Part shown: positions 3,850-20,590 of the stretch, piece by piece
Layout of the letters: every line of letters begins with the position of its first letter
Numbering within the stretch: position 1 is the stretch's first letter
Assembly: GCA_903970355.1 (NCBI GenBank)
Contig: CAJCIF010000381.1
Coordinates: 1-20,591, forward strand
Direction: 5' to 3'
Length of the DNA stretch: 20,591 nt
Origin: Actinomycetota bacterium
Lineage (GTDB): Bacteria; Cyanobacteriota; Vampirovibrionia; Obscuribacterales; Obscuribacteraceae
Made by a program: the position numbers and the translations under genes
Notes under the pieces: generated by a model
Database searches by the model: none
Told to the model about the DNA's origin: nothing
The model's input: the letters and a program-made list of their open reading frames with translations, nothing else

Positions 3850-3870
3850 AAGCTCTAAATCTCTAAAAAT

Positions 3871-3894
3871 GTAGGGGCGGCTTTAGCCGCCCGC
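3871..3894. repeat. Interspersed palindromic repeat, GTAGGGGC type (copy 1)
   Basis: GTAGGGGCGGCTTTAGCCGC followed by CC contains the perfect 8-bp stem GGGCGGCT/AGCCGCCC (3875-3882 with 3885-3892). It starts 4 nt after the ancestral stop of the aldo/keto reductase. A related element with the same GTAGGGGC opening but a different stem lies at 10634-10658. Such GTAGGGGC...GCCC elements are, from general knowledge, scattered in many cyanobacterial genomes. It may help end transcription of the reductase, though no T-run follows. Confidence 0.6.
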
Positions 3895-3969
3895 TGAAGC
3901 AACATCAATTCGAATCAATCCAGATATAACCCATAGGTTACCGATCTCCGGCAATTTCCTATAGACCCA

Positions 3970-4002
3970 TTGACAGACCATACGTACGTATGCGTTAATA
4001 GT
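3970..4002 (+). promoter_or_regulatory. imuA promoter with CATAC-N4-GTATG operator (candidate SOS box)
   Basis: TTGACA (3970-3975) is followed by the perfect 14-bp palindrome CATACGTACGTATG (3979-3992) and then GTTAAT (3995-4000) at an 18-nt spacing. Almost the same string occurs at 10570-10602 upstream of imuB-dnaE2, the only other place in the window. An inverted repeat lying between -35 and -10 is the expected place for a repressor, and LexA controls imu genes in well-studied bacteria. The box differs from the E. coli, Bacillus and alphaproteobacterial LexA boxes, so the LexA assignment is inference. The leader to imuA would be about 180 nt. Confidence 0.65.
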
Positions 4003-4013
4003 TGATACACCAC

Positions 4014-4172
4014 ATGGGCCATTTATCCAGACAACCTGCTTGCAGGCTGAACTCTGTTCGGCTTTGCCAGCGGGCTGTTTGGATCCCAATTGCCTGTGGC
4101 TTTTTTGCGGCGAAAATGCGGAACGGAAGCAAAAACCAGGCACGAACTAGGCACATAGAACCAGGCACATAG
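4014..4172 (+). CDS. Candidate 52-residue ORF in the imuA leader (weak)
   Basis: An ATG at 4014, just after the imuA promoter, opens 52 codons ending in TAG at 4170-4172, 13 nt before the imuA start. The peptide begins MGHLSRQPACRLNSVRLCQR and has a hydrophobic middle (AVWIPIACGFFAAKMRNG). Its tail is encoded by the CCAGGCAC tandem repeats (QARTRHIEPGT). No ribosome-binding site is visible and I do not recognise the peptide. It could be a translated leader, a small basic protein, or chance reading through a repeat. The rest of the 319-bp gap (3867-4185) holds only the palindrome, the promoter and the tandem repeats. Confidence 0.2.
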   Translation: MGHLSRQPACRLNSVRLCQRAVWIPIACGFFAAKMRNGSKNQARTRHIEPGT

Positions 4173-4174
4173 AA
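4134..4174 (+). repeat. Short degenerate tandem repeat, C(C/T)AGGCAC units
   Basis: Three copies of an 8-bp core occur at 4136-4143 (CCAGGCAC), 4147-4154 (CTAGGCAC) and 4161-4168 (CCAGGCAC). The last two are each followed by ATAGAA. The array ends 11 nt before the imuA start codon and so lies in its leader RNA. Its role is unknown. Confidence 0.6.
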
Positions 4175-4185
4175 AGAGATCGTAA

Positions 4186-5010
4186 ATGAAAAGCTCTGTT
4201 GCTGCCCTCAAACAACACTTCGAGAATTTATTTCCAGGTAAGTGGGTTGATGCTGATGCACGTCAGAACACTCTTCTGACCGGCTTAAATCAAATCGATC
4301 ATAGTTTAACGAAGGGCATAGCTCGCCAGCGTATTACAGAGTGGACAGGTTCTTCTTCTTCCGGAAAATCAACGATATTGCGAGCAGTCATCAAGCAATG
4401 GTGCCTGGCCGGATTCGATGTTGCATTCATTGATGCTGAAAATAAACTTGTAGCTGCAGATTGGACTTCCATCAATCAAGATAATAGTGCTGCATCAACA
4501 CCCAACATGGGCAAGTTCTGGGTAATCCGTAACTTAGAGTCGAATGTCACTCATAGTAAAAATTATCTCTGGGCAGCAGATGAACTGATTCGTGCTAATG
4601 CTTTTGATGTTGTCGTTTTAGATGTCGGCACAAGATCGCACCGGTCATCTATTAACAGCAGAGTCTATGCTCGCTTGCAAAATTCATTGGGAAAATCCAA
4701 ATCTGCTTTGGTAATTTTGCAAGATATCGAAAACCATTCAGTATCAGAAGAACGCACTCCTTCCGGTTGGGGTTCATATGCCCAGCTCAATTTTCATTGG
4801 GGATCTGAAATCAATCGCGTCAGTGGCCTGCACGGAACCATAACCATCGCACCATCAATTAATTGCGAAGTCATAAAAGATGGCATTACTCGCGATGCAG
4901 ATGTATCTGTTGTTTCACATGTCGTCAATCGATTGTTCACGCATGCTCCGGTTCCAGATCGTCGAATACCAAAGGCACGACAATCAGCCGTTAGTGTTGT
5001 AAATCGCTAA
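4186..5010 (+). CDS. imuA: ImuA-like RecA-fold protein of the translesion mutasome
   Basis: A 274-residue RecA-like ATPase-fold protein of the ImuA (SulA-like) family. ImuA works with ImuB and DnaE2 in SOS-induced, error-prone bypass of DNA lesions. The start is fixed by a TAA codon directly upstream in frame; AAAGAGA precedes it as a weak ribosome-binding site. Visible features are an N-terminal helical part ending LTGLNQIDHSLTKGIARQRI, a Walker A loop GSSSSGKST (55-63), the strand VAFIDAENKL, and a Walker B-like VVVLDVG (Asp146). A RecA-type segment, GWGSYAQLNFHW, follows, and the C-terminal tail is basic. The length fits the family. The usual partner genes are not adjacent: a kinase operon and a DUF4239 gene separate it from imuB-dnaE2. 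Both units share a matching promoter/operator, which supports the assignment. A generic RecA-like protein is the alternative. Confidence 0.8.
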   Translation: MKSSVAALKQHFENLFPGKWVDADARQNTLLTGLNQIDHSLTKGIARQRITEWTGSSSSGKSTILRAVIKQWCLAGFDVAFIDAENKLVAADWTSINQDNSAASTPNMGKFWVIRNLESNVTHSKNYLWAADELIRANAFDVVVLDVGTRSHRSSINSRVYARLQNSLGKSKSALVILQDIENHSVSEERTPSGWGSYAQLNFHWGSEINRVSGLHGTITIAPSINCEVIKDGITRDADVSVVSHVVNRLFTHAPVPDRRIPKARQSAVSVVNR

Positions 5011-5149
5011 AATGATCGGAATTAACCAAGCGCAAGATAATCTTAAGATTGCAATCCTGTGAGCGGTTGCATTAACGAAGCCTTATGTTGAGCCCAGTTC
5101 AAACCAATAACAAAGGGTATAAAAGAGCTATTGATTATGGCGTAAATCA

Positions 5150-6568
5150 ATGGCAGAACTACAACTCTCCATCAAGCACTCTCCAATTCAGCAGCGCATT
5201 TCCTTCTGGTCTATGTGCGCGCTTGCACCTGTATGGTCGCTCGTAGCGCCTCTTGCTCTTGGCGCTATTATCGCGCTTGCACTTTCCAGCGCTACGGCTG
5301 CCAGTTCCATATATTGTCCAATGCTGATTTTGTTTCTGCTCGGTGTAATGGTGAGCGGAATAGTCGGCACTGCGCTCTCCGAAGATGACACTATTTACGC
5401 AACAAAATCCGGAATCGCCTTTCCAATACTTCTTCTATTCCAAACACGCTTCCATAGAAATAAAGAATGGAACGATCTGATTGCTGCAGATGTAATCGAA
5501 GGAGACAACAAGCAAACACTTGAGCTTGCCTTTAGAGACGATAGCCGAGTTTCTCTTCAACGTCACGACATGAAAAATGCCGAGCTGGAGCAGTTGTTGT
5601 TGGCAATTGAATTATGGGGAACGAACTGTCAGCGCTCTCCCAATCTGATCGATTTTCAAAGAAGTTTGCAAACAGCGGCTCTCAACGAAAGCATCGGCTA
5701 TACCCGAATATGGGAAGAGGAACTAGGCAGACGATTTTCAACCACTGCCTTCATGCCTCTTGAACCTGGTCAAGAACTTCGGAATGGCAGACTAAAAGTA
5801 GTTAGGCAACTAGCTTTCGGTGGACTTTCTGCGATCTATCTTGTTGAAACAGACGGATCAGAATTGGCTGTTCTCAAAGAAGCTGTGGTGCCAAGTGCAG
5901 TGGACGAAGAAACGATGAAGGCTGCAACTGCAAGATTGGAACGAGAGTTCAAAACACTCACTTCGCTGAAACATCAGAATATAACTGCAGTACGTGATTA
6001 CTTTGTAGAAAACAATCGCAATTATTTGATGCTCAACTATGTCAATGGCCAAGATCTTCGACAACTCGTTAAACAACACGGTCCACGATCAGAAAATGAA
6101 GTCCGCGAATGGGGCATAACACTTGCTTCCGTGCTCACCTATCTCCATAATCACGAGCCACCCATTTTGCATAGAGATTTCACGCCTGATAATGTAGTAC
6201 TCCAAAATGATGGTCAGTTGGTTGTTATCGATTTTGGTGCAGCTAACGAATTCATCGGACAGGCTACCGGAACTTTAATAGGTAAGCAAGCTTACATTGC
6301 ACCAGAACAACTGAGAGGTAAGGCGCAACCATCAAGTGACATTTATGCACTTGGTGCCTCACTTTTCTTCCTTCTCACCGGACGTGATCCTAAACCACTA
6401 GCCGTAGCACATCCAAAATCTGTCATTCCTGAAATCTCAACGGAGTTTGATGATCTCATTGCTACTTGCACAGCATTCGAACCAAACATGAGATTTTCTT
6501 CTGCGGATGAAGTGCTTGCCGCTCTCAACGCGCTGCCGGTAAATACAACACCAGAACCAGTTAGCTGA
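5150..6568 (+). CDS. Membrane-anchored Ser/Thr protein kinase (first of a tandem pair)
   Basis: A 472-residue Hanks-type kinase with two N-terminal membrane helices (about 21-46 and 56-76). A small juxtamembrane domain (about 80-158) follows, then a full kinase domain (about 208-460). Kinase marks: Gly-rich loop LAFGGLSAIY, ATP-binding Lys243 in AVLKEA, helix-C Glu near 266, catalytic loop LHRDFTPDNVVL (Asp343, Asn348), metal-binding DFG (361-363), and IAPEQL. The catalytic loop has Thr where HRDLKPxN kinases have Lys. All other core residues are present, so it should be active. No PASTA or other extracellular sensor domain is seen. It heads an operon: the next kinase starts 6 nt after its stop. 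The 139-bp gap before it holds a weak TATAAA-like box (5119-5124) and the 12-bp palindrome AATCTTAAGATT (5039-5050), but no clear promoter. Substrate and signal are unknown. Confidence 0.88.
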   Translation: MAELQLSIKHSPIQQRISFWSMCALAPVWSLVAPLALGAIIALALSSATAASSIYCPMLILFLLGVMVSGIVGTALSEDDTIYATKSGIAFPILLLFQTRFHRNKEWNDLIAADVIEGDNKQTLELAFRDDSRVSLQRHDMKNAELEQLLLAIELWGTNCQRSPNLIDFQRSLQTAALNESIGYTRIWEEELGRRFSTTAFMPLEPGQELRNGRLKVVRQLAFGGLSAIYLVETDGSELAVLKEAVVPSAVDEETMKAATARLEREFKTLTSLKHQNITAVRDYFVENNRNYLMLNYVNGQDLRQLVKQHGPRSENEVREWGITLASVLTYLHNHEPPILHRDFTPDNVVLQNDGQLVVIDFGAANEFIGQATGTLIGKQAYIAPEQLRGKAQPSSDIYALGASLFFLLTGRDPKPLAVAHPKSVIPEISTEFDDLIATCTAFEPNMRFSSADEVLAALNALPVNTTPEPVS

Positions 6569-6574
6569 TACCAA

Positions 6575-8968
6575 ATGAAATACGAACAAGATATAGCTAG
6601 CGAAACTAAAGTCAAAATTGCAGAAGCAATCAATGAGAGTGTTGTGTCCGATCTTCAGCTTCCGATAGCAGAGGCCGCACCAGAGAATTCCGAGGCATCC
6701 ATAGATTTAAGCAATGCACCAACTGCAGCGGAAACGCCCGAGATAACCGACAACAAGCAGCAGGAATTATTCGAACAACAAAGCGCAAAGTCTGCCGAAA
6801 AGCCGGTCGTAACAGAGCCATCGGATTTTGCTGAAAAAAAGAAACCTCCTGTTTGGCTTGTTGCATCTGTTCCGATGTTCTTTTCAATCTCACTTATCAC
6901 AACCAACATCTTTTACTTCTTGCGCCACATCGCTGCACCACACTTGCAACCATGGCTAATAGACGTGTACCTTGTCTTGCTTTTCATGACCAGCTATTTC
7001 TTCTTTCGAATTTTTTGTATACAACAAACAGCAGCGTTGAATGGGGCTCTTTTTAAGGCAAGACCTCCAACAGAATTCCTCACGGAAGATCCAATAAAAA
7101 AATATTGCAAAGAACTGAGAAAGCGGAATAGCAAAGATAAACGTCCTAAAACATTTCTTGTTCTTACCAGTCAGCTTCGGCACGGTTTATTGGGAAGCGT
7201 TTTTTGGCTAGCAAGGGGTACTCTTTACACCATTCTATATTTGGTGATCGGATTCTTGGCTTTGGCTACTATGTGTGCTGCCATCTGCAATCCCGGCACG
7301 CATCAAATCGTTAACAATGCAAGCTGTATTTCTGGCTTGATTCTGAGTTGCATAACATTCGCCATCGCATTCAGATTCAATAATACCTATAGAAAGATCA
7401 TTCAAACTTATAATTTCGCACTTCTCGACCCGAAGCTTAAAGAGTATGTAAAACTACCACCAACAAAGGCTTCCACTCGTAACGAGATTACTGTGGACTT
7501 CGATGCATTTGCCGACATTGAACGCTGGGTAAAGCATCGCTTCAGTCAAAAAAGCCGGAAAAAGACGATGTTTATGTGCTGTCTTGTGGTGCTTTTCTTC
7601 GCATTCAATGGATTCGGTGTCCTCGAAAATTCGTTGAGATCTATATCACTCTTTCTTGTGAACGCCGGTGGACTTCCTGGTGCGGCTGGCAGTGGCACAA
7701 GCTTCACACAGTATACAATCAACTATTTCAATCTGCTTTTATCTTTCCTGGGGCTTGGAGGTATGAGCGCAGCGATTTATGCAATGCTCCAACCAACGCA
7801 TTTGAAATTGACAACGGAAGGTGTGTCATTCCTCTATAAACGACGCCCATTTGGGAAGGTCCGTTTTACACCATGGTCGAAAATTAAACAGCTGCGAATT
7901 CTTAGCCGCAAAGGCACCACTATGTTGGGAGATAAACAACTTGAATTTAGAGGTGACAGAAATGCTCTTATTAAATTTAAATTGAATTGCATCGATTCCA
8001 TTTCGAGCCGTGAAGCTATATTGAAGGGCATAGAATCATGGGCGCCAAATGTAAAACGCGATGCGGACGTCATTCAAACATTGCAACGTCCACCAGAACA
8101 GAGTTATACGGATCTCTGGTTACAAGCATTAGTTGCTCCACCGAAACGCGATCGCCTTAAGCCACTTATAACCAATTCGAGCCTGCAGGAAGGTCATTAC
8201 TCCGTAGTTAAAACGATTGGTCTGGGTGGTCAAGGAACAGCATATCTAGCGAGAGATACAAAAACTTCTCAACTCGTCGTGTTGAAGGAATTCATTCTTC
8301 CAATTTATGTCGATATCAATGTACGCAAAGCTGCTTTAGAAAGATTCGAAAACGAAGCGAGAATTCTCAAAGGACTGGATTGCGCTCAAATCGTAAAGTT
8401 GGTCGATTTCTTTGTTGAAGATCACCGCGGTTATTTAGCACTTGAATATATTGACGGCGAAGATTTGAAAACGAAAGTAGAACGCAATGGCAAGTTGACG
8501 GAGAAAGAAGTTCTAAATTACGCAGTTCAGATGTGCGAGATCCTCAATTACCTGCACAACCAGGTGCCACCAGTAATTCATAGGGATTTTACTCCTGATA
8601 ACCTTATTCTCCAACTGAACGGATCGCTAAAACTTATAGACTTCAACGTAGCCCAGCAAACCAACGATACTATTACCGGCACAATTGTCGGTAAACAGTG
8701 TTATTTACCGCCGGAGCAGTTTCAGGGTGAACCTGTAATTCAAAGTGATATATACAGCATGGGCGCCACTCTATTTTTCCTTGCTACTGGGTCACCGCCT
8801 TCTCCAATAAGCCAATCACATCCGAAAGAGTTCAATAGTGAATTGAGCAAGGATTTTGATGATTTCGTGGCACGAGCAACCACTATTGATACGGGTTTGA
8901 GATACACGAGCGCAACTGAATGCCTCGAAAAACTTAAACGAATATTGAATACAGAGGATAAAGCCTGA
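6575..8968 (+). CDS. Large multi-helix membrane Ser/Thr kinase with DFN motif (second of pair)
   Basis: A 797-residue kinase. Residues 1-90 are acidic, Ala/Glu/Pro-rich and probably disordered. About six membrane helices follow: near 92-117, 126-147, 207-238, 248-266, 330-350 and 384-404. Next is a juxtamembrane domain (about 408-491) that resembles the one in the upstream kinase, and a C-terminal kinase domain (about 541-792). Kinase marks: IGLGGQGTAYLA, Lys571 in VVLKEF, helix-C Glu594, catalytic loop IHRDFTPDNLIL (Asp671, Asn676), and YLPPEQF in place of APE. The metal-binding motif is DFN (689-691), not DFG; the Asp is kept. Such a change can affect activation-loop movement, so it may be weakly active, differently regulated, or a scaffold. 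ATG 6575 lies 6 nt after the upstream stop with no clear ribosome-binding site, which suggests translational coupling. The membrane part fits no sensor domain I recognise. Confidence 0.88.
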   Translation: MKYEQDIASETKVKIAEAINESVVSDLQLPIAEAAPENSEASIDLSNAPTAAETPEITDNKQQELFEQQSAKSAEKPVVTEPSDFAEKKKPPVWLVASVPMFFSISLITTNIFYFLRHIAAPHLQPWLIDVYLVLLFMTSYFFFRIFCIQQTAALNGALFKARPPTEFLTEDPIKKYCKELRKRNSKDKRPKTFLVLTSQLRHGLLGSVFWLARGTLYTILYLVIGFLALATMCAAICNPGTHQIVNNASCISGLILSCITFAIAFRFNNTYRKIIQTYNFALLDPKLKEYVKLPPTKASTRNEITVDFDAFADIERWVKHRFSQKSRKKTMFMCCLVVLFFAFNGFGVLENSLRSISLFLVNAGGLPGAAGSGTSFTQYTINYFNLLLSFLGLGGMSAAIYAMLQPTHLKLTTEGVSFLYKRRPFGKVRFTPWSKIKQLRILSRKGTTMLGDKQLEFRGDRNALIKFKLNCIDSISSREAILKGIESWAPNVKRDADVIQTLQRPPEQSYTDLWLQALVAPPKRDRLKPLITNSSLQEGHYSVVKTIGLGGQGTAYLARDTKTSQLVVLKEFILPIYVDINVRKAALERFENEARILKGLDCAQIVKLVDFFVEDHRGYLALEYIDGEDLKTKVERNGKLTEKEVLNYAVQMCEILNYLHNQVPPVIHRDFTPDNLILQLNGSLKLIDFNVAQQTNDTITGTIVGKQCYLPPEQFQGEPVIQSDIYSMGATLFFLATGSPPSPISQSHPKEFNSELSKDFDDFVARATTIDTGLRYTSATECLEKLKRILNTEDKA

Positions 8969-8969
8969 C

Positions 8970-9638
8970 GTGAAATTCGATTTTAAATCAAAGCTGAAGG
9001 AATCCAGCCCCGAAGTGAAATTAGATCACAACGAGGATATAAAAGCCCCTACTCAGCAAGGCCTAGTCCCTGTAGATAATAAAAATACTCAACAAACCTT
9101 GAGCTTGGTTTCAGATCGATCTGATGACGAGCCAAACAAGCGAATCAAGTTACCAGATTCCACTTCCAATAACATTGTGGATCGAATCGCTAAAAATAAA
9201 TGGTCGTTTCCCATCTTCGTATTTGTATGCTGTCAAACTTTGCTTCTTAGTTTTCTAACTCAACCACAGTCTTATATTGATATAGGTAGAGACACTTTGA
9301 GCTTTACCCTCAATGCAGGCGAAGCCGATCGATGTTTTAGAGAAGCAGCACGAATAGATCCACAGTCAGAGGAAGTGCCGTTAGCTGCGACGAAAGCATT
9401 TCTCGATTATCCCTATGACGATAATTATGCTTATGAGTGGGCCAATAAAGCAATAAATATGAATCCTAAATCAGCAGATGCTCATAGAGCTTTAGGTGAT
9501 TATGCCTTTCGAAGGCAGCAATTCGATATAGCTAAAGCCCAGTATTCAAAAGCTTTGTCTTTCGATAACCAAAACCAGGGTGCAATTGAAGGTCTCAAAG
9601 CACTTGAGCATTTAAATGATTTTCAACAGGCGAAATAA
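8970..9638 (+). CDS. Membrane-anchored TPR protein of the kinase operon
   Basis: A 222-residue protein starting at GTG 8970, one base after the upstream kinase stop; an ATG alternative close by is not seen. Residues 1-75 are polar and probably cytoplasmic. One membrane helix (WSFPIFVFVCCQTLLLSFL, 78-96) follows, then about 120 residues of tetratricopeptide repeats. These include EADRCFREAARIDPQSEE, YAYEWANKAINMNPKSADAH and DIAKAQYSKALSFDNQN. TPRs bind other proteins, so this may be a partner or substrate of the two kinases. This follows from operon position, not from any recognised family. It ends 9 nt before the stop codon of the convergent DUF4239-type gene. Confidence 0.75.
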   Translation: MKFDFKSKLKESSPEVKLDHNEDIKAPTQQGLVPVDNKNTQQTLSLVSDRSDDEPNKRIKLPDSTSNNIVDRIAKNKWSFPIFVFVCCQTLLLSFLTQPQSYIDIGRDTLSFTLNAGEADRCFREAARIDPQSEEVPLAATKAFLDYPYDDNYAYEWANKAINMNPKSADAHRALGDYAFRRQQFDIAKAQYSKALSFDNQNQGAIEGLKALEHLNDFQQAK

Positions 9639-9647
9639 TTCCGGCTA

Positions 9648-10451
9648 TTAAGTCTCGTTTTTTTCCAAATCAATGTGATTACCCAATTGATTTTCGAATA
9701 TTTGCTTGTCCACTTGAAACGCATCCGGATGCACCTTTCTATCACCTGAAAACGGATAGCCAAACCAAAGCACCAGAAGAAGATTCAAGGAAATAATCAC
9801 GGAAATCATTCCCGTCATCACCATTTGCAATGCCGCATGTTCGAGTGCAAAAAAATAGGTAAACATAATTGTTACTACTCCACCAATTAAAAGAACTACC
9901 CATTCTTCAGCTGGGACACCAGCTTGCGCAGCGTTTGTACGTGTTCTCCTGCAATCCCACAATTGACAAACTTCTTGTACAGCAATTGGATACAAACCTT
10001 GTTCGGTTTGCGTTTTTGGATCAAGGTCTTCAACAGCCCGCATCAACTTAATGGCAGTTTTGCGACTTTCCATGTCTATTTTGCATTCATCCATCAACTG
10101 CCATTCCACATCAATAACTCGCTCAGCATAGTGGTTACAGAGATCTTTGATTTTCTTTTCTTTGTCTGGAGAGAATCGCTCAGACAATAAGAAAACATCA
10201 GCCAGACTATTTGCTTCTGTTTGAACATTTGTGCGTGCTTCTTGAAACTTGGCCAGAGCTTCCACGACCACGAGGCCAAGTAAAACTGCGTACATGGTGC
10301 CAATAATTGCAAGCAAATAACCTGCGACTTCTTGCGATTCACGAAGCCTTTTCATGTTCGTAAAGCGCCGGAACAAGTAGAGGCCACCAACAGCCATCGT
10401 GGCTGTAAGTAGTACTAGTAGAACGCCAGTGCTATACGAATCGATTTGCAT
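9648..10451 (-). CDS. DUF4239-type membrane protein
   Basis: A membrane protein resembling the DUF4239 (bestrophin-like) family. From ATG 10449-10451 it has 267 residues. An N-terminal helix (TGVLLVLLTATMAVGGLYLF) is followed by AGYLLAIIGTMYAVLLGLVV and a soluble helical segment beginning TEANSLADVFLLSERFSPDK. Next come the conserved-looking RRTRTNAAQAGVPAEEW and two final membrane helices (VVLLIGGVVTIMFTYFFAL and MVMTGMISVIISLNLLLVLW). The C-terminal tail is polar. The GTMYAVLLGLVV, EANS and PAEEW-then-helix pattern is what I associate with DUF4239. The family function is not settled; a channel-like role is only a guess from fold similarity. The frame is open upstream to ATG 10484 and TTG 10496. 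I prefer ATG 10451 because it directly precedes the first helix, but no start has a good ribosome-binding site. Confidence 0.72.
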   Translation of the reverse strand: MQIDSYSTGVLLVLLTATMAVGGLYLFRRFTNMKRLRESQEVAGYLLAIIGTMYAVLLGLVVVEALAKFQEARTNVQTEANSLADVFLLSERFSPDKEKKIKDLCNHYAERVIDVEWQLMDECKIDMESRKTAIKLMRAVEDLDPKTQTEQGLYPIAVQEVCQLWDCRRTRTNAAQAGVPAEEWVVLLIGGVVTIMFTYFFALEHAALQMVMTGMISVIISLNLLLVLWFGYPFSGDRKVHPDAFQVDKQIFENQLGNHIDLEKNET

Positions 10452-10500
10452 AGAGCAAAGTATACAGTTCAAACGCTTTTGCATAGAAGATAGCAATTCG

Positions 10501-10561
10501 ATCTCTATATCGATTGGCGTGCAATTTTGTGCCTGGTCTTACCCTTCCTTTATATAGAGAT
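10501..10561. repeat. Widely spaced 10-bp inverted repeat upstream of imuB
   Basis: ATCTCTATAT (10501-10510) and ATATAGAGAT (10552-10561) are perfect inverted copies with 41 nt between them. They sit between the DUF4239 gene and the imuB promoter. The right arm overlaps a TATAAA that would serve as a -10 toward the DUF4239 gene. The pair could be a looping operator or the ends of a tiny element; chance is possible in AT-rich sequence. Confidence 0.45.
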
Positions 10562-10569
10562 GTCCCGCC

Positions 10570-10602
10570 TTGACAGACCATACCTTTGTATGGGTTAATA
10601 GT
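10570..10602 (+). promoter_or_regulatory. imuB-dnaE2 promoter with CCATAC-N4-GTATGG operator (candidate SOS box)
   Basis: TTGACA (10570-10575) is followed by the palindrome CCATAC-CTTT-GTATGG (10578-10593) and GTTAAT (10595-10600) at 18 nt. All but five or so of 33 positions match the imuA promoter at 3970-4002; the differences fall mostly in the palindrome centre and at position 10593. Operator arms lying between -35 and -10 suggest repression, most likely by LexA given the genes controlled. The leader to the imuB start is about 80 nt and includes a GTAGGGGC palindrome. Confidence 0.68.
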
Positions 10603-10633
10603 AAAACATCATATTAATGGCGTCGCTACTACC

Positions 10634-10658
10634 GTAGGGGCATGGCATTGCCATGCCC
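10634..10658. repeat. Interspersed palindromic repeat, GTAGGGGC type (copy 2)
   Basis: GTAGGGGCATGGCA-T-TGCCATGCCC holds a perfect 10-bp inverted repeat (10638-10647 with 10649-10658). It shares the GTAGGGGC opening and GCCC ending with the element at 3871. It lies inside the imuB leader, between the promoter and the start codon, so its RNA hairpin could influence imuB-dnaE2 expression. Confidence 0.62.
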
Positions 10659-10684
10659 ACCCCCACATGTTCCTGGTACTTGTC

Positions 10685-12265
10685 ATGCCGCGAATTGCAT
10701 TCTTACGCATTCCCCGCTTCCAGGTTGCCGTACATCAAAAGCGCGAAAATTTGCAAGGCAAACCATTCGCACTTGTCGCCGGCAAACTTACTCCTGGTGG
10801 CTATAGTCGCGCTCGCATTTTTATGTGCTCATCCGAAGCTAGCCGCAGGCGAGTTGTCACCGGCATGCGCTTAAGTGAAGCAAAAGCGGCGTGCTCCGAT
10901 CTTATTCTGCAGGAATGCGATGACGTGCTTTACACAAACGTTCAAAATCAATTGTTGCAAGCTCTTGTAAATTGCTCACCGAAAGTTGCATCACACAAGA
11001 CTGGTGAATTTTCTCTGGATGCATCCGGCTTATTGCATCTAGGCGGCGAAACTAAATTTTGCCATGCTGTTTTGAAACTTTGCGCACAGGCAGGTTTTCC
11101 CAATACACGCATCGGCATTGCAGACAGTACCTTTGCCGCCATGGTAGCAACCAGGCTTCGAAAGAAAATGATCTTTGTCGTTCCGAAAGGCAAAGACAAA
11201 GAATTTCTTGCACCATTGTCCATTACCCATTTGGAATTAGATCCGGAAATGGAAGAGGTGTTGTTGAATTTAGGAATCAATTCAATGGCGCAGCTTGCAA
11301 ATTTACCGCCTGATTCCTTAGTAGAACGTTTTGACGAAGTTGGTAAATGGGCCTATGAAATGGCACAAGGGAAAGACGACCGTAGGCCGCGTTTGCCTGT
11401 TTTTTCCAAAGAGTATGAGTGCTCCATTGACATGGGTGGTGCAATTTCTTCACTTAATCAAACTATCTTTGCTTTCAAAGCGTTGCTCAACAAATTAACT
11501 TTAGATCTGCAACAAAATGGTTTGTGGGCAGAGGAATTGCATTTGAGTTTCTTCAATGAAGACGACTGCTTTGATGAACGTATTCTGCGATTGATTCGTC
11601 CGTCCAGTCAGGCGAAGTTTTTGCTGGAGGTAATCAGGCTTTCCATAGAAGCCAAACCTTTAGCGCGCGAGTTTACCAAAATAAGGCTCACCATTTCTCG
11701 CTTCTCCAAACAATTGTGGGAACAAACTGCCATTGCAGATTCCGTCAATGTGCGTTCTGCAAACAAAATAAGTGCATCACTCCTCCTCTTACTGCAGCGC
11801 TTCTTAACGAGATTCGGAGAGCATAAGGCAGTAAAGCCAATTGCCAGCGATCATTACGATATGCAGCATGCTGGGGCATGGGTGCCAGTAGTCAAAAACA
11901 ATTATTCCGATGCCGTCATACCTGTCAATTTTGAGTACTTGCAAAATGCAGTTGGCAGTCATCTCATGCCGGATCTCGTCTTGCGTAAATGCCAGCCGAA
12001 ATCACAAGTCATGATAGAACTGCAAGATTCCAGGCCATCTGCCATAAATCACAACAAAACGTGGTACCGCGTCAAGGAATTTACGGTACCAGAATATCTT
12101 TCCGGTAATTGGTGGGAAACAAAATCCGCCAAGTCCTATTACAAAGTTTTGGTGGAACCTTTTTCTTTAAAAGGATCGGGCACCACTGTATCCGCTGCTA
12201 CGTTGATGCTACTCGTTCACGATCAACAAAATAACCATTGGTACGTTGAAGGGTTCTTTGACTGA
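10685..12265 (+). CDS. imuB: ImuB, inactive Y-family DNA polymerase homologue
   Basis: A 526-residue Y-family polymerase-like protein that acts as a hub for the DnaE2 mutasome, linking ImuA, DnaE2 and the sliding clamp in studied bacteria. ATG 10685 is chosen because the family opens MPRIAFLRIPRFQVAV at that point. The frame is open back to TTG 10586, but that codon lies inside the operator; ATG 10667 is also possible. Family marks: ALVAGKLTPGGYSRARIFMC, GMRLSEAKAACSDLIL, TRIGIADSTFAAMVATR, the helix-hairpin region LGINSMAQLANLPPDSLVER, and YEMAQGKDDRRPRLPVF. Active polymerases of the family use DxD and SIDE motifs. Here the first acidic site is LRIPRF and the second is SLDASGLL, so catalytic acids are missing, as expected for ImuB. 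The dnaE2 start lies 6 nt after its stop. Confidence 0.88.
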   Translation: MPRIAFLRIPRFQVAVHQKRENLQGKPFALVAGKLTPGGYSRARIFMCSSEASRRRVVTGMRLSEAKAACSDLILQECDDVLYTNVQNQLLQALVNCSPKVASHKTGEFSLDASGLLHLGGETKFCHAVLKLCAQAGFPNTRIGIADSTFAAMVATRLRKKMIFVVPKGKDKEFLAPLSITHLELDPEMEEVLLNLGINSMAQLANLPPDSLVERFDEVGKWAYEMAQGKDDRRPRLPVFSKEYECSIDMGGAISSLNQTIFAFKALLNKLTLDLQQNGLWAEELHLSFFNEDDCFDERILRLIRPSSQAKFLLEVIRLSIEAKPLAREFTKIRLTISRFSKQLWEQTAIADSVNVRSANKISASLLLLLQRFLTRFGEHKAVKPIASDHYDMQHAGAWVPVVKNNYSDAVIPVNFEYLQNAVGSHLMPDLVLRKCQPKSQVMIELQDSRPSAINHNKTWYRVKEFTVPEYLSGNWWETKSAKSYYKVLVEPFSLKGSGTTVSAATLMLLVHDQQNNHWYVEGFFD

Positions 12266-15523: not shown

Positions 15524-16570
15524 ATGGAATTTAGACAATTAGGACGTTCAGGACTAAAAGTGCCCGTGTTGAGTTTTGGAGCTGGAACATTTGGCGGCAA
15601 AAATGACTTCTTCAAAGCTTGGGGCGCTACGGATGATATTAAAGTTGCAACGCGCATCGTTGATATTTGTCTTGAAGCCGGTGTGAATTTTTTTGATACC
15701 GCTGATATCTATTCCGATGGGCAATCTGAAGAAGTACTTGGTAAAGCTATTGGTAAAAAGCGCAATGATGTCATCATCTCGACCAAAGCGACTTTTCCAA
15801 TGGGCACAGGTCCAAATGATGTCGGCTCTTCTCGATACCGTCTTATTAAGTGCTGCGACGACAGTTTGAAACGACTGAACACAGATTACATCGACATTTA
15901 TCACATGCATGGCTTTGATGCAGTGACGCCAATCGAAGAAACCTTGAGCACCTTGGAAACTTTAGTGCAAAGCGGAAAAGTAAGATACATAGGTTGCTCA
16001 AACTTTTCAGGCTGGCACCTGATGAAGTCGCTTTCCATTTCGGAGCGATACGGCTGGGCGCGTTATGTTTCACACCAGGCCTATTATTCACTGATAGGTC
16101 GTGAGTACGAATGGGAATTAATGCCGCTCGCTATCGATCAAGGAGTAGGCATTACGGTATGGAGTCCACTCGGTTGGGGACGTCTAACTGGAAAAATCAG
16201 GCGCGATCAGCCACTGCCAAAAGAAAGCAGATTGCATCACACTGCTCAATACGGTCCGCCGGTGGAAAACGAACATCTCTTTAACGTCATCGATGCCATT
16301 GATGAAGTAGCGAAAGAGACAAATAAGAGCGTGTCCCAAATTGCCTTAAATTGGCTCATGCAGCGACCGACCGTTTCTAGCATCATATTCGGTGCACGTA
16401 ACGAAAAACAACTCAAAGATAATCTCGGCGCATTCGGTTGGAATCTTACTGCCGACCAGGTTGCAAGACTCGATGCAGCAAGTGAACAAACACCAATCTA
16501 TCCATACTGGCACCAACGCCAATTCGGTGCGCTAAATCCTTCACCGATTAAGGAATTAGTCCGAGCCTAA
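15524..16570 (+). CDS. Aldo/keto reductase (intact)
   Basis: A 348-residue aldo/keto reductase of the kind often annotated as predicted oxidoreductase or L-glyceraldehyde 3-phosphate reductase-like. It starts MEFRQLGRSGLKVPVLSFG after a good AAGGA ribosome-binding site 8 nt upstream. The catalytic tetrad is visible: Asp and Tyr in FFDTADIYSDG, Lys in VIISTKATF, His in IYHMHGFD. The cofactor-binding end, SSIIFGARNEKQLKDNLGA, is intact. It is only distantly like the frameshifted reductase at 2881, so it is not its tandem copy. Its last 15 nt overlap the 3' end of the TetR gene on the other strand. The 93-nt gap after dnaE2 shows no clear terminator, so read-through from dnaE2 cannot be excluded. 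The substrate is unknown. Confidence 0.9.
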   Translation: MEFRQLGRSGLKVPVLSFGAGTFGGKNDFFKAWGATDDIKVATRIVDICLEAGVNFFDTADIYSDGQSEEVLGKAIGKKRNDVIISTKATFPMGTGPNDVGSSRYRLIKCCDDSLKRLNTDYIDIYHMHGFDAVTPIEETLSTLETLVQSGKVRYIGCSNFSGWHLMKSLSISERYGWARYVSHQAYYSLIGREYEWELMPLAIDQGVGITVWSPLGWGRLTGKIRRDQPLPKESRLHHTAQYGPPVENEHLFNVIDAIDEVAKETNKSVSQIALNWLMQRPTVSSIIFGARNEKQLKDNLGAFGWNLTADQVARLDAASEQTPIYPYWHQRQFGALNPSPIKELVRA

Positions 16571-17179
16571 AATCAAATCGATCAATGTATCAGCGGTTCG
16601 CTCCATCTGAAATGGAAACAACTCGCTGCCATACAATACTTCTTGCGTCATGATGTGATTGACGAGCGTGCCGCAGAATATTCGCGCAATCGCCTCAGGA
16701 TCCTTAATTCGAGGGCTTGGATTTACGGCGAAGTATTCGCAAAACAGTTTGATGCCCGGTCTAATTACTGCATTGGTATAGAGCCTTGCCAATTCTGGAA
16801 AGCGGCTTGATTCACCAATGACTGTTCTCAGAAGCGCTACATAAGAAGGATCCTTTTGCCGTCCAGCAAACACCTTTGCAAGAGTTTTCAACATCTGGCG
16901 TGGGGGAACGTTCATATCGATCGTGCCACCAAACTGCTCTTTCACGTGGGCTAGGGTAAGGCTCTCGATAATGGCTGTGAAAAGCCCTTCTTTATCATTA
17001 AAATGACTATAAATAGTCTGTTTAATTACACCAGCTCGTTCGGCAACGCGATTCATGCTTGTGCCTTCGTAGCCAAATTGCAGAAACACTTCAATTGCGC
17101 CGCGGATAATTTGATCGCGCTTCGCCTTCGAATAGGCTGACAGGCCCTCTTTTGAAGTATCGTTTGCCGTAAGACTCAT
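16556..17179 (-). CDS. TetR family regulator, CecR-like, of the adjacent efflux operon
   Basis: A 207-residue TetR-family repressor. The DNA-binding domain occupies about 17-65, with RDQIIRGAIEVFLQFGYEGT followed by SMNRVAERAGVIKQTIYSHF, a full helix-turn-helix. The ligand-binding C-terminal domain contains RQMLKTLAKVFAGRQKDP and LLRTVIGESSRFPELARLY, which recalls regulators of multidrug efflux pumps. The start ATG 17177-17179 is 58 nt from the divergent HlyD-type gene. A perfect palindrome in the promoter between them (17200-17215) is the likely operator, giving autoregulation plus control of the pump. The layout matches E. coli cecR (ybiH) with ybhGFSR. Its effector is unknown. Confidence 0.87.
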   Translation of the reverse strand: MSLTANDTSKEGLSAYSKAKRDQIIRGAIEVFLQFGYEGTSMNRVAERAGVIKQTIYSHFNDKEGLFTAIIESLTLAHVKEQFGGTIDMNVPPRQMLKTLAKVFAGRQKDPSYVALLRTVIGESSRFPELARLYTNAVIRPGIKLFCEYFAVNPSPRIKDPEAIARIFCGTLVNHIMTQEVLYGSELFPFQMERTADTLIDLILGSD

Positions 17180-17191
17180 AACAAACCCGAT

Positions 17192-17220
17192 TTGACTTTC
17201 ATACCGAATGGTATGATAAT
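17192..17220 (+). promoter_or_regulatory. Efflux-operon promoter with TetR operator in the spacer
   Basis: TTGACT (17192-17197) and GATAAT (17215-17220) are 17 nt apart. The spacer holds the perfect inverted repeat CATACC-GAAT-GGTATG (17200-17215). A dimeric TetR repressor there would block RNA polymerase directly. Transcription would start near 17227, leaving only about 11 nt before ATG 17238, so the first message may be nearly leaderless. Confidence 0.68.
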
Positions 17221-17237
17221 AACATCAAACGGTAATA

Positions 17238-18620
17238 ATGTCTAATTGGCGACCACGGCCCGCAATGCAAACAACAAGGAAAAGCGACTCGGAAGAATCC
17301 GACAGAACTCCCAGAGAACAGGGAGCGGTTGGCACGCCGCCGCAACGTTCGGACCCTTCTGCTTCACGTAGTCAAAGTCCTAAACAGGAAAAACCAGCTC
17401 CTCAGCCACCAAAGCGGAAAAGGAGAACCGGCGTCTTCGTTCTAATTTTCCTGGTAGCGGCTGGCGTTCTAGCTTTTTTTGGTTATCGTAATTACGCAGC
17501 CCGCCAGGAGCAGAAAGGCAAACTGTTCGTAAGCGGTCGCATTGAAGGTTACGAGACGAACCTCGGAGCTAAGATAGGCGGTCGGGTTCAATGGATCAAA
17601 TACCGTGAAGGGGCTGTTGTCCACCCGGGTGAACTTGTTGCTCAATTAAGCGATGATGACTACCAGGCTCAATTGCGTGGTTCTCAGGCACGGTTGAAAA
17701 AAGCAATCGAGGCTCGAGATGTTGCCGAGCAACAGGTGGAAGTTGCACAACAAACTGTAGATCAATCTGAACTCAACAGGCTGCAAGCTACTCAAGACAC
17801 CAAAGGAAAAGTTTTCCAGGCTCAAGCACAAGTGGCATCCGCAAAAGCACAGTTGAGTCAGGCCGAAGCGGAAGTAATTCAAACTCAAGCAGACTTAAAA
17901 CTCGCCCATTTGCGGAAAGAGCGTTATGACACGCTTGCGCAACAGGGTGCGGTTATGCAAGACCAAGCCGATCAAGCTGACACGACGGTTGCTACCACCC
18001 AAGCCACACTGGAAGCTAAGATTGCTGCTCTAGAATCAGCGAAAAAGCAACTAGCAGCATCTCAAGGCAACTTGATGCAACAGGAAAGTACACGTTTGAA
18101 TCCGCCGATTCGGTCATCGCAATTAACGGCATCACAACGTCAACTTATCCAGGCGAAGTCACAACTTAAGTCGGCAGCTGATGAAATCCACAATGCTCAG
18201 TCGGACATAGACCAAATTAAAGCGAATATCGCTTACCTGAATATTCCAAGCACTATATATGGTGTGGTTACGGCCAGACCGGTGGAACCAGGTGCTGTTG
18301 TGACAGCAGGCCAAACTGTTTTGTCTTGCATCAATCTTGATACCGTTTACCTGCGAGGTTATGTACCGGAAGGCTCTATAGGCAAAGTGCGGGTAGATCA
18401 AGATGCCATGGTCTATCTAGATTCAGCACCAAAAAAGGGCCTGCCGGGAACGGTGATCGAAATTGATCCGGAAGCTTCATTCACTCCGGAAAATATCTAT
18501 TTTCGAGATGACCGTGTTAAACAAGTATTCGGCATCAAAATCGCTATAAAAGACCCTCAACGATTTCCAAAACCGGGAATGCCTGCGGATGCAGAAATTC
18601 TCTTGAAGGAAACAAAATGA
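17238..18620 (+). CDS. HlyD family membrane-fusion protein (YbhG-like)
   Basis: A 460-residue periplasmic adaptor of an ABC exporter. Residues 1-60 are a Ser/Pro/Gln-rich, basic cytoplasmic tail longer than usual. A single membrane anchor follows (GVFVLIFLVAAGVLAFFGY, 65-83). Then come the first lipoyl half (VSGRIEGYETNLGAKIGGRV), a long coiled-coil hairpin (about 140-330, rich in Ala and Gln), the second lipoyl half (GVVTARPVEPGAVVTAGQTV) and a beta-barrel (LDTVYLRGYVPEGSIGKVRV). The segment DPEASFTPENIYFRDDRVKQ corresponds to one in E. coli YbhG. The stop overlaps the next start (ATGA), so translation is coupled to the ABC protein. ATG 17265 is an alternative start. It probably moves drugs or other toxic small molecules; the substrate is not shown. 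Confidence 0.88.
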   Translation: MSNWRPRPAMQTTRKSDSEESDRTPREQGAVGTPPQRSDPSASRSQSPKQEKPAPQPPKRKRRTGVFVLIFLVAAGVLAFFGYRNYAARQEQKGKLFVSGRIEGYETNLGAKIGGRVQWIKYREGAVVHPGELVAQLSDDDYQAQLRGSQARLKKAIEARDVAEQQVEVAQQTVDQSELNRLQATQDTKGKVFQAQAQVASAKAQLSQAEAEVIQTQADLKLAHLRKERYDTLAQQGAVMQDQADQADTTVATTQATLEAKIAALESAKKQLAASQGNLMQQESTRLNPPIRSSQLTASQRQLIQAKSQLKSAADEIHNAQSDIDQIKANIAYLNIPSTIYGVVTARPVEPGAVVTAGQTVLSCINLDTVYLRGYVPEGSIGKVRVDQDAMVYLDSAPKKGLPGTVIEIDPEASFTPENIYFRDDRVKQVFGIKIAIKDPQRFPKPGMPADAEILLKETK

Positions 18621-20590
18621 CTACGAGCTCCTTGCCTCGAAATGCAACGGACAATAGTCAGAGGGAAAACTCAATCATCTACGCGCGCGGGTTAACCAAG
18701 CGCTATGGCAATCTTGAAGCTATAAAAGCAATCGATCTTTCCGTTAAAAAAGGAGAGATATTCGGTTTAATTGGTCCGGATGGTGCCGGCAAAACAAGCA
18801 CGTTTCACATACTCGGTGGCGTTATGGAACCCACTTCCGGTGAAATTCTGGTTATCGGAAAACCTCCACGTGAATCTCGCTTATCAATCGGTTATTTAAC
18901 ACAACAATTTTCTCTCTACCTCGACATGAGCATAGAAGAAAACATGAAATATTCGGCCGGATTGAGAGAAGTGCCTCCCGCTGATTATAAAGAACGCTTT
19001 GAAAAATCATTACGGCAAATGAACTTATACAAGTTTAAAGAACGGCTTGCCGGGCAGTTGTCTGGCGGGATGAAACAAAAGCTTGCTCTTTGTTGTGCGC
19101 TCGTTTCCAGACCGACAGTCTTGCTTCTTGATGAACCAACAACAGGTGTTGATCCTGTATCAAGGCGCGAATTCTGGGATCTCCTCGCTGAGGTGTCTGC
19201 TGAGGGTGTAACGATTGCTGTTGCGACCCCTTATCTGGATGAAGCAGAAAGATGCAACCGTGTTGCTTTAATGCATCAGGGATCGATTTATCAAGTTGGC
19301 ACTGTTGCCGAACTAAAGGCAAGTCTTAATCTGCAAAGATTAGAATTGCGCTCGCCAACGATATTAAAGGTAGAAGAGGATCTCGTTAAATCTCTCAATG
19401 AACACAGACCAGATATTGCCGACGTGCAGACTTTTGGAGATCGTTTAGATGTTCTCGTTCCAAATGTTGACTCCGGCAAGCAAATAATCACAGAAGTTGG
19501 CAATCAATTTAATCTGCGCGATCTCAAAATAGAAGTTGAAGAACCGAGTCTCGAAAACGTTTTTGTGATGCGATTAAAAAGTGCCACAAGCACTGAGCAA
19601 GGCGTGCAGAATGCTTTTGCGTTTCAAAAGCCGCACCGGAATAAACTTGGCGATTCAGCCATTCACGCTGCCGAAATCTGGAAGACGTATGGCGACTTCA
19701 ACGCTGTGAAAGGCGTTAGTCTCGATGTGGCTTACGGAGAAATCTATGGATTGCTAGGTGCAAACGGTGCAGGAAAAACAACAACCATCAAAATGCTTTG
19801 CGGTTTGATCGAACCTTCCGCCGGCACCATGACCTTAGCCGGTGAAACTGAAGGTTTGCGCGATCCAAAATTGCGAGAACGCATTGGTTACATGAGCCAG
19901 AAGTTTACTCTTTATGACGATCTCACTCTTTTTGAAAATTTGCAGTTTTACTGTGGCGTCTACGAAGTGCCAATTAGATACAGGCTGGAACGAATCAAGT
20001 GGGTTTTGAAGGCAAGCGATCTTGTCGGTCAAGAAACTATGATTACAGGAAAATTGCCGGGTGGCTGGAAGCAACGGCTCTCTTTTGGTGCATGCGTAAT
20101 GCACGAACCAGACATTCTCTTTCTTGATGAACCGACAAGCGGTGTTGACCCTCTGGCGCGGCGGCAGCTCTGGGTATTAATTTCAGAATTCGCCCGTAAA
20201 GGAACAGCCGTGCTTGTAACCACTCACTTCTTAGAAGAAGCGGAGCATTGCCACCATCTCGGTTTTATGGTTGCTGGTGAGCTGGTTGCACAAGGAACAC
20301 CGACAGCAATTAAAGAATCACAACCCGGTCAGTTGATTGAAGTGGTCACAGATCAAAATCAACGCGCCTCGGATGTCCTCAAGAAAAAGATGGATGGATG
20401 GCGAGTTTCCATATTTGCAGATCGATTGCATATTGTTTTGGATAACCCGGATTCTGAGCTTCAAGAAATTCTCAATCTCTTGCAAAACAACAACATAAAC
20501 GTCAAGTCTCATAAACCGATTCCATTTTCTCTGGAAGATTCTTTTATCGGGATTGTCCAGAGGACGGGCAATCAAACAGCGGACTCTTAG
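18617..20590 (+). CDS. Double-NBD ABC exporter ATPase (YbhF-like)
   Basis: A 657-residue cytoplasmic protein with two complete ABC ATPase domains (about 20-240 and 368-585) and short C-terminal extensions after each, as in YbhF. NBD1: Walker A GPDGAGKT (53-60), Q-loop YLTQQF, signature LSGGM, Walker B VLLLDEP (Asp172, Glu173). Its H-loop His is replaced by Pro (VATPYLDEAE, Pro205). NBD2: Walker A GANGAGKT (401-408), Q-loop YMSQKF, signature LPGGW, Walker B ILFLDEP, H-loop His557 (VTTHFLEEAE). Site pairing therefore predicts one normal ATP site (NBD2 Walker A with NBD1 LSGGM) and one degenerate site. No membrane segments are present, so partner permeases are needed; by comparison with ybhGFSR they should begin just past the right edge. 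The start overlaps the adaptor stop by 4 nt. Confidence 0.9.
   Translation: MTTSSLPRNATDNSQRENSIIYARGLTKRYGNLEAIKAIDLSVKKGEIFGLIGPDGAGKTSTFHILGGVMEPTSGEILVIGKPPRESRLSIGYLTQQFSLYLDMSIEENMKYSAGLREVPPADYKERFEKSLRQMNLYKFKERLAGQLSGGMKQKLALCCALVSRPTVLLLDEPTTGVDPVSRREFWDLLAEVSAEGVTIAVATPYLDEAERCNRVALMHQGSIYQVGTVAELKASLNLQRLELRSPTILKVEEDLVKSLNEHRPDIADVQTFGDRLDVLVPNVDSGKQIITEVGNQFNLRDLKIEVEEPSLENVFVMRLKSATSTEQGVQNAFAFQKPHRNKLGDSAIHAAEIWKTYGDFNAVKGVSLDVAYGEIYGLLGANGAGKTTTIKMLCGLIEPSAGTMTLAGETEGLRDPKLRERIGYMSQKFTLYDDLTLFENLQFYCGVYEVPIRYRLERIKWVLKASDLVGQETMITGKLPGGWKQRLSFGACVMHEPDILFLDEPTSGVDPLARRQLWVLISEFARKGTAVLVTTHFLEEAEHCHHLGFMVAGELVAQGTPTAIKESQPGQLIEVVTDQNQRASDVLKKKMDGWRVSIFADRLHIVLDNPDSELQEILNLLQNNNINVKSHKPIPFSLEDSFIGIVQRTGNQTADS

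Follow-up and report, generated by a model that had tools for sequence, protein, structure and literature searches.

A predicted LexA operator of Candidatus Obscuribacterales stands before both units of a split imuA and imuB-dnaE2 mutasome

The DNA analysed here, referred to as the window, is a stretch of 20,591 bp that forms contig 381 of a 3.75-Mb draft genome (66% complete, 548 contigs) assigned through its relatives to the Melainabacteria, little-known non-photosynthetic relatives of cyanobacteria. The window carries the mutasome genes imuA and imuB-dnaE2 as two separate units, and before each unit lies a promoter that contains the palindrome CATAC-N4-GTATG (the box). We read this palindrome, in the wider form YATAC-N4-GTATG, as the LexA operator of the order Candidatus Obscuribacterales, which would co-control both units of the split mutasome and would have preceded a single operon in their ancestor. 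Comparison of sequences leads us to give this reading a probability of about 0.92. For a large uncultured sister lineage of cyanobacteria it provides a LexA operator that can be put to the test, so that the regulon of those genomes becomes predictable.

The two promoter stretches, at 3970-4002 before imuA and 10570-10602 before imuB, are identical at 29 of 33 positions in an ungapped alignment, close to the figure of about 28 given in a first-pass annotation of the window. Three of the four mismatches are bases of the box centre and the fourth lies just 3' of the box, while the arms are identical, and the remark in that annotation that the arms are kept while the centre varies is borne out. 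The runner-up 33-mers in the window, on both strands, all fall below 20/33 identity. Both promoters have the layout TTGACA - 3 nt - CATAC-N4-GTATG - 1 nt - GTTAAT, which places the palindrome inside the 18-nt spacer between a sigma-70-like -35 and -10. Exact copies of CATAC-N4-GTATG number two in the window; 300 first-order Markov simulations averaged 0.007 copies, with two in none of them. The annotation had described one promoter shared by the two units. What they share is near-identical sequence, each unit having a copy of its own. The -10 form in the window is GTTAAT and the most frequent form in the family is TTTAAT. A general promoter scan of 3850-10750 returned 6 sites against 13.3 expected and missed both imu promoters, as its -10 rule excludes GTTAAT. 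Upstream of the imuA promoter, on the minus strand at 3875-3892, lies a terminator-like stem, GGGCGGCT...AGCCGCCC, with a T-rich tail.

LexA itself is intact in this lineage. The comparison set comprised 50 genomes of the family, 48 of which have LexA. The draft genome has a single lexA, on a contig other than the window, and its product clears the NCBIfam LexA equivalog TIGR00498 with 169.6 bits against a cut-off of 110.95. The protein has the winged helix and the self-cleaving protease of a complete LexA repressor, and the family profile matches LexA structures. An alignment of 18 orthologues shows no variation at the Ala-Gly cleavage site or at the catalytic Ser and Lys, and the recognition-helix motif GL[KR]NRMT[VI]HQHV turned up at 47 of the 48 lexA loci. 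For the alignment of residues we used chain 7ocj, which we take to be E. coli LexA. N48, M50, T51, H53 and Q54, all invariant in the 18 sequences, align with residues of E. coli LexA that are listed as DNA-contacting in PMC3091678.

The box also precedes lexA, the classical signature of autoregulation. Upstream of the genome's own lexA lies TATACTTACGTATG, one base off the window box, which ends 38 bp before the probable ATG. Across the family, TATAC-N4-GTATG lies upstream of lexA in 47 of 48 genomes, its start lying 31-176 bp upstream of the first residue aligned. Of the other 112,725 positions in the lexA loci, a single one matches at one mismatch or fewer.

The imuA gene is present in 45 of the 50 genomes, and its upstream region was read in 44 (the contig of G035 ends at the gene). 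YATAC-N4-GTATG lies upstream of imuA in 44/44, within 300 bp in 37 of them (30 with the exact CATAC form, 7 with TATAC). The other seven have an exact box farther up, at 310-379 bp in G012, G023, G026 and G027 and at about 1.35 kb in G047, G048 and G049, which belong to one genus; in G048 a YhcG-type nuclease gene stands between box and imuA. Beyond the 300-bp stretches, the 124,953 positions of the imuA loci include 7 that match exactly and 3 that match with one mismatch, and the exact ones are these farther-up imuA boxes and a box before imuB in G009.

At ssb, scanned at 30 loci of the 49 genomes with an ssb match, the box is exact in 22, has one mismatch in 4 and two mismatches in 3, and is cut by the contig end in 1; further ssb sites were seen elsewhere. 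Here the box overlaps the -35 TTGACA, as TTGACATAC. An unbiased count of 5-N4-5 words, with one genome per genus, ranked the dyad first for lexA (23/24), imuA (17/21) and ssb (17/20), with a maximum of 3 in 20 mononucleotide shuffles. A radical-SAM gene (PF04055; the nearest NCBIfam model is PA0069-like, under its cut-off) is boxed in the window's genome, and boxed radical-SAM-like frames occur in G001, G005, G008, G018 and G029, as judged by eye and in one case also by Pfam. The suggestion of a lineage-specific SOS motif, made in the first-pass annotation, thus fits the conservation at lexA, imuA and ssb, which points to a box typical of the order.

Other features of these loci are recorded as side observations. 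A CTCCCC tract about 33-39 bp after the start of the box is kept in most of 21 ssb loci compared. In 28/29 family genomes examined, the gene divergent from the boxed ssb encodes a Ser/Thr protein kinase (L001 981-2837 in the window's own genome; L357 and L359-L386). In the 21 loci compared, no conserved promoter-like element was found on the kinase side of the box, and co-regulation of this kinase is for that reason not claimed. A further ssb of lower similarity (about 38-47% identity) is present in most family genomes. In G012 (L186 929-1964) a box lies 157 bp before a Ku gene.

These observations suggest a simple mechanism. In the undamaged cell, a LexA dimer would occupy the palindrome in the -35/-10 spacer of both promoters and block RNA polymerase. 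Upon DNA damage, RecA-stimulated self-cleavage of LexA would free both promoters, and imuA and imuB-dnaE2 would be co-induced although they lie 5.7 kb apart. The same geometry is common in the family: of the 35 imuA promoters whose box is preceded by at least 12 bp of sequence, 26 have TTGAC within 12 bp 5' of the box and 21 have T-N-AAT within 9 nt 3' of it. LexA would therefore be expected to cover the spacer and exclude RNA polymerase in most imuA promoters.

A genome-wide search gave a mixed picture. The draft genome has 6 exact CATAC-N4-GTATG sites and none of the reversed pattern. Four of the six lie before imuA, before imuB, 65 bp before ssb and at the start of the radical-SAM gene. In eight relatives, YATAC-N4-GTATG occurs at 57 distinct sites, whose neighbours were judged mostly by eye. 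Of these, 27 are at lexA (8), the imu operon (8), ssb (6), dnaE2 (3) and the radical-SAM gene (2). The other 30 comprise 3 beside efflux-type genes, 2 before WYL-domain regulator genes, 1 in the gap between an xseA-like and an unnamed gene, 12 intragenic sites and 12 with no assignment. None of the 57 was seen beside recA or a uvr gene, though no gene-by-gene uvr scan was made.

Several results weigh against the LexA reading. One concerns recA: no box with fewer than two mismatches was found in 30/30 genomes (a sample of the 46 with recA), scanned over 150-1,500 bp upstream, or 150 bp only in G035; some recA frames open up to 342 bp upstream of the first model position. The best upstream site has two mismatches in 5 genomes, three in 24 and four in 1, and recA was rejected as a regulon member. 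The window genome's own recA is missing from the draft. An operator before recA is common in SOS regulons but not universal. The lexA of G001 is preceded by a degenerate site only. Of the six sites in the draft genome, one falls within a long reading frame and another lies 30 bp upstream of an unnamed frame. In many genomes the bare pattern is only slightly more frequent than its reversed control, and in some it is less frequent, so chance must account for many of the remaining sites and only part of the bare matches can be operators; for this reason we do not use bare enrichment as proof. Three efflux-linked sites resemble the operator of another repressor. Outside the order, where the lexA genes comprise 32 of the 35 outgroup genes examined (of 36; G204 was left out), the dyad was found before one only (G185 of family f5, at -249), and three f4 genes have the one-mismatch form CATACATCYATATG. 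Finally, the literature searched, at the level of titles and abstract openings, yielded no binding or expression data for the order. The first-pass annotation had proposed a test for the box before lexA, recA, uvr genes and other repair genes. The outcome is positive for lexA, imuA, ssb, the radical-SAM gene and three of five detached dnaE2 genes, and negative for recA (0/30).

The palindrome could be the site of some other regulator of repair genes, such as a WYL- or TetR-type repressor. The pattern does occur beside efflux-type genes in three of eight genomes, two of them with a TetR-type gene opposite, and before WYL-domain regulator genes in two. The efflux-linked sites have a different centre and different flanks, common to them, and were set aside as LexA sites; they are probably TetR-type operators that resemble the LexA box. 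Moreover, lexA and imuA are boxed in nearly all family genomes examined and ssb in most, autoregulation is expected of LexA, and in 12/14 genomes of f5, a different family within the class, lexA has a perfect dyad with this geometry upstream. We consider control by a regulator other than LexA highly improbable. Still less credible is the idea that the two window promoters are alike only as core promoters, with a TTGACA and an A+T-rich -10, and that the palindrome is incidental. The frequent TTGAC and T-N-AAT elements around the imuA boxes give it some footing, but it is contradicted by the conservation of the lexA box and by the unbiased word count, which puts the dyad first at lexA and ssb too, despite their different promoter layout.

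The sites outside the repair genes are described here for their own sake. The efflux-linked sites have the form CATACTNNAGTATG and lie in L292, L317 and L326, with the TetR-type gene opposite in L292 and L326 identified by eye; another CATACTNNAGTATG site, at G001:C1:303494, was seen only as a match. The two WYL-domain regulator genes belong to two genera (L319 580-1590; L324 619-1635) and have CATAC-N4-GTATG 81 and 119 bp upstream.

The split of the mutasome locus is unusual. From the imuA stop at 5010 to the probable imuB start at 10685 there are 5,674 bp, in agreement with the roughly 5.7 kb of the annotation, and four genes intervene, so that imuA, imuB and dnaE2 do not form a single operon here (Table 1). 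In 20/20 relatives whose locus was read, imuA and imuB are adjacent (overlapping or at most 135 bp apart), and among the 21 loci the window is the only one with genes between them. Because of this adjacency the split is, on comparative grounds, most simply taken as derived. In the 20 relatives, dnaE2 comes right after imuB, or at most about 240 bp on, in 12, stands behind other genes in 5 and lies outside the stretch in 3; three of the five detached copies (G017, G028 and G046) have a box of their own.

Table 1. Coordinates of the two boxed promoters and of the genes of the split mutasome locus in the window.
Feature	Positions	Strand	Basis
-35 hexamer TTGACA, imuA promoter	3970..3975	+	sequence; family promoter comparison
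Predicted LexA-type operator CATACGTACGTATG, imuA promoter spacer	3979..3992	+	sequence comparison
-10 element GTTAAT, imuA promoter	3994..3999	+	18 nt from -35
imuA, RecA-like, 274 aa	4186..5010	+	Pfam RecA over cut-off; orthologues adjoin imuB in relatives
Ser/Thr protein kinase gene 1, between imuA and imuB	5150..6568	+	Pfam Pkinase
Ser/Thr protein kinase gene 2	6575..8968	+	Pfam Pkinase
TPR-repeat protein gene	8970..9638	+	Pfam TPR_11 just over, TPR_2 just under cut-off
Bestrophin-like membrane protein gene	9648..10496	-	Pfam Bestrophin-like
-35 hexamer TTGACA, imuB-dnaE2 promoter	10570..10575	+	sequence
Predicted LexA-type operator CATACCTTTGTATG, imuB promoter spacer	10579..10592	+	sequence comparison
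-10 element GTTAAT, imuB-dnaE2 promoter	10594..10599	+	sequence
imuB, Y-family polymerase relative, 526 aa from ATG at 10685	10685..12265	+	Pfam IMS
dnaE2, error-prone DNA polymerase, 1052 aa	12272..15430	+	NCBIfam PRK05672 over cut-off

The gene names differ in how they were reached. DnaE2 scores 1193.7 against a PRK05672 cut-off of 939. ImuA stays under its curated NCBIfam cut-off (NF033429, 19.6 against 150 bits), as does that of the relative G018 (24.5), and the name is based on RecA likeness and linkage to imuB. In the window's ImuB, a Gly is aligned with the Asp of the SxDE motif of a Pol IV chain, the only position that was judged. That Asp is presumably catalytic in Pol IV, and a Gly in its place is what we would expect of an inactive ImuB.

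Under the LexA reading, imuA and imuB would once have formed an operon behind a single boxed promoter; in the window lineage imuB would have acquired a boxed promoter of its own, and other genes would have come in between. A related arrangement exists in G009, where a second boxed promoter lies inside the 135-bp gap between imuA and imuB. In G035, the nearest relative by sequence, no boxed promoter was found between the two genes. A DnaE2 tree places the window genome (G000), G035 and G009 in a fully supported clade. The imuB promoter may have arisen either by one gain followed by a loss in G035, or by two gains; the two histories are indistinguishable because the branching order within the clade is unresolved in the tree. 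Of the 24 positions outside the box, 19 are identical between the two window promoters, while the best agreement of either with any other of 44 promoters is 15 and 17. The pair in G009 agrees at 17/24, against 15 and 13 with other promoters. This fits duplication or conversion of the promoter within the genome, both in the window genome and in G009, and suggests that co-regulation can be kept by promoter copying when an operon breaks up.

A fragmentary assembly invites the concern that the split was produced by assembly or binning, all the more as none of the 50 family genomes offers a second representative of the genus. Along the stretch G+C runs at 0.40-0.47, inside the window's own range, the promoter copies show 4 differences in 33 positions, and imuB of the neighbour G009 likewise has a boxed promoter to itself. 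We regard an artefact as improbable.

The genes between imuA and imuB raise a further, more speculative possibility. The kinase genes and the TPR gene lie on the same strand as imuA, beginning 140 bp after it, and between imuA and the first kinase gene a scan of 3850-10750 found no terminator on the plus strand, a weak indication that transcription reads through into the kinase genes. It is tempting to speculate that the SOS circuit reaches Ser/Thr phospho-signalling, with the kinase and TPR genes read through from the imuA promoter and the ssb-divergent kinase part of the same response. We think this doubtful, at odds well short of even; if there were read-through, DNA damage would induce the kinases along with the mutasome. 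Elsewhere in the window, at 16556-20590, a TetR-type regulator gene is divergent from HlyD-type-like and double ABC-ATPase-like genes (both judged by eye), and this region is probably an efflux unit.

How far the box reaches beyond the family was judged from the outgroup lexA genes. Another family within the order has TATACTTATGTATG before lexA in 3/3. The 32 genes outside the order are 7 of f3, 7 of f4, 14 of f5 and 4 of f9, and the search there used AC-N4-GT, which imposes the core and leaves the full arms free. The perfect dyads of f5 consist of TAGAC (6), TGTAC (4), TGGAC (1) or TGAAC (1), each followed by N4 and the complement; the 18 genes of f3, f4 and f9 yielded one perfect dyad only. 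The f5 recognition helix varies with the dyad: HKNS[VI]WQY occurs with all six TAGAC sites and with TGGAC, SKNSIKQY with all four TGTAC sites and SKNSIWQY with TGAAC. Because lexA outside the order mostly has other dyads, or none that was found, the box appears on present sequences to be typical of Candidatus Obscuribacterales and to be a lineage variant in the AC-N4-GT series of cyanobacteria and Bacillus. Across the class, graded dyads around this core (AGAC, GTAC, GGAC, GAAC and ATAC arms) are accompanied by recognition-helix changes, so the class is well suited to the question of how a repressor can shift its target yet keep its regulon.

Titles and abstract openings retrieved for Melainabacteria, Obscuribacter, Vampirovibrio and the motif letters gave no account of an SOS response in this group. 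The cyanobacterial LexA box of Nostoc and others, RGTACNNNDGTWCB or AGTACWNWTGTACT (PMC3091678), is likewise a 14-bp dyad with a 4-nt centre and an AC-N4-GT core that stands before lexA and ssb. It has GTAC/GTAC arms, whereas those of Obscuribacterales are ATAC/GTAT, and neither the window boxes nor the lexA box match its consensus; in Obscuribacterales the imu genes are boxed and recA is not. A CATAC half-site is listed for ssb and recA of Microcystis (PMC3091678). The B. subtilis box CGAAC-N4-GTTCG (quoted in PMC3091678) has the same dyad geometry and core and differs in the outer three arm bases, CGA instead of YAT. As in the LexA-controlled imuA-imuB-dnaE2 cassette (PMC9578287), the three genes are predicted here to be under an SOS-type operator; unlike that cassette, the window has imuA and imuB-dnaE2 apart, and a separate copy of the boxed promoter stands before each of the two. 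The LexA regulons of Bacteroidetes and Balneolaeota (PMC8565304, PMC7739468) also have lineage-specific motifs, obtained by similar comparison, and the former includes imu, ssb and splB and the latter a radical-SAM gene. Their motifs are of another kind, CTAA-N5-TTAG or a direct repeat, and recA is included there. Seventeen LexA motifs had been counted by 2021 (PMC8565304), so another one for a new lineage is expected in kind and new in detail.

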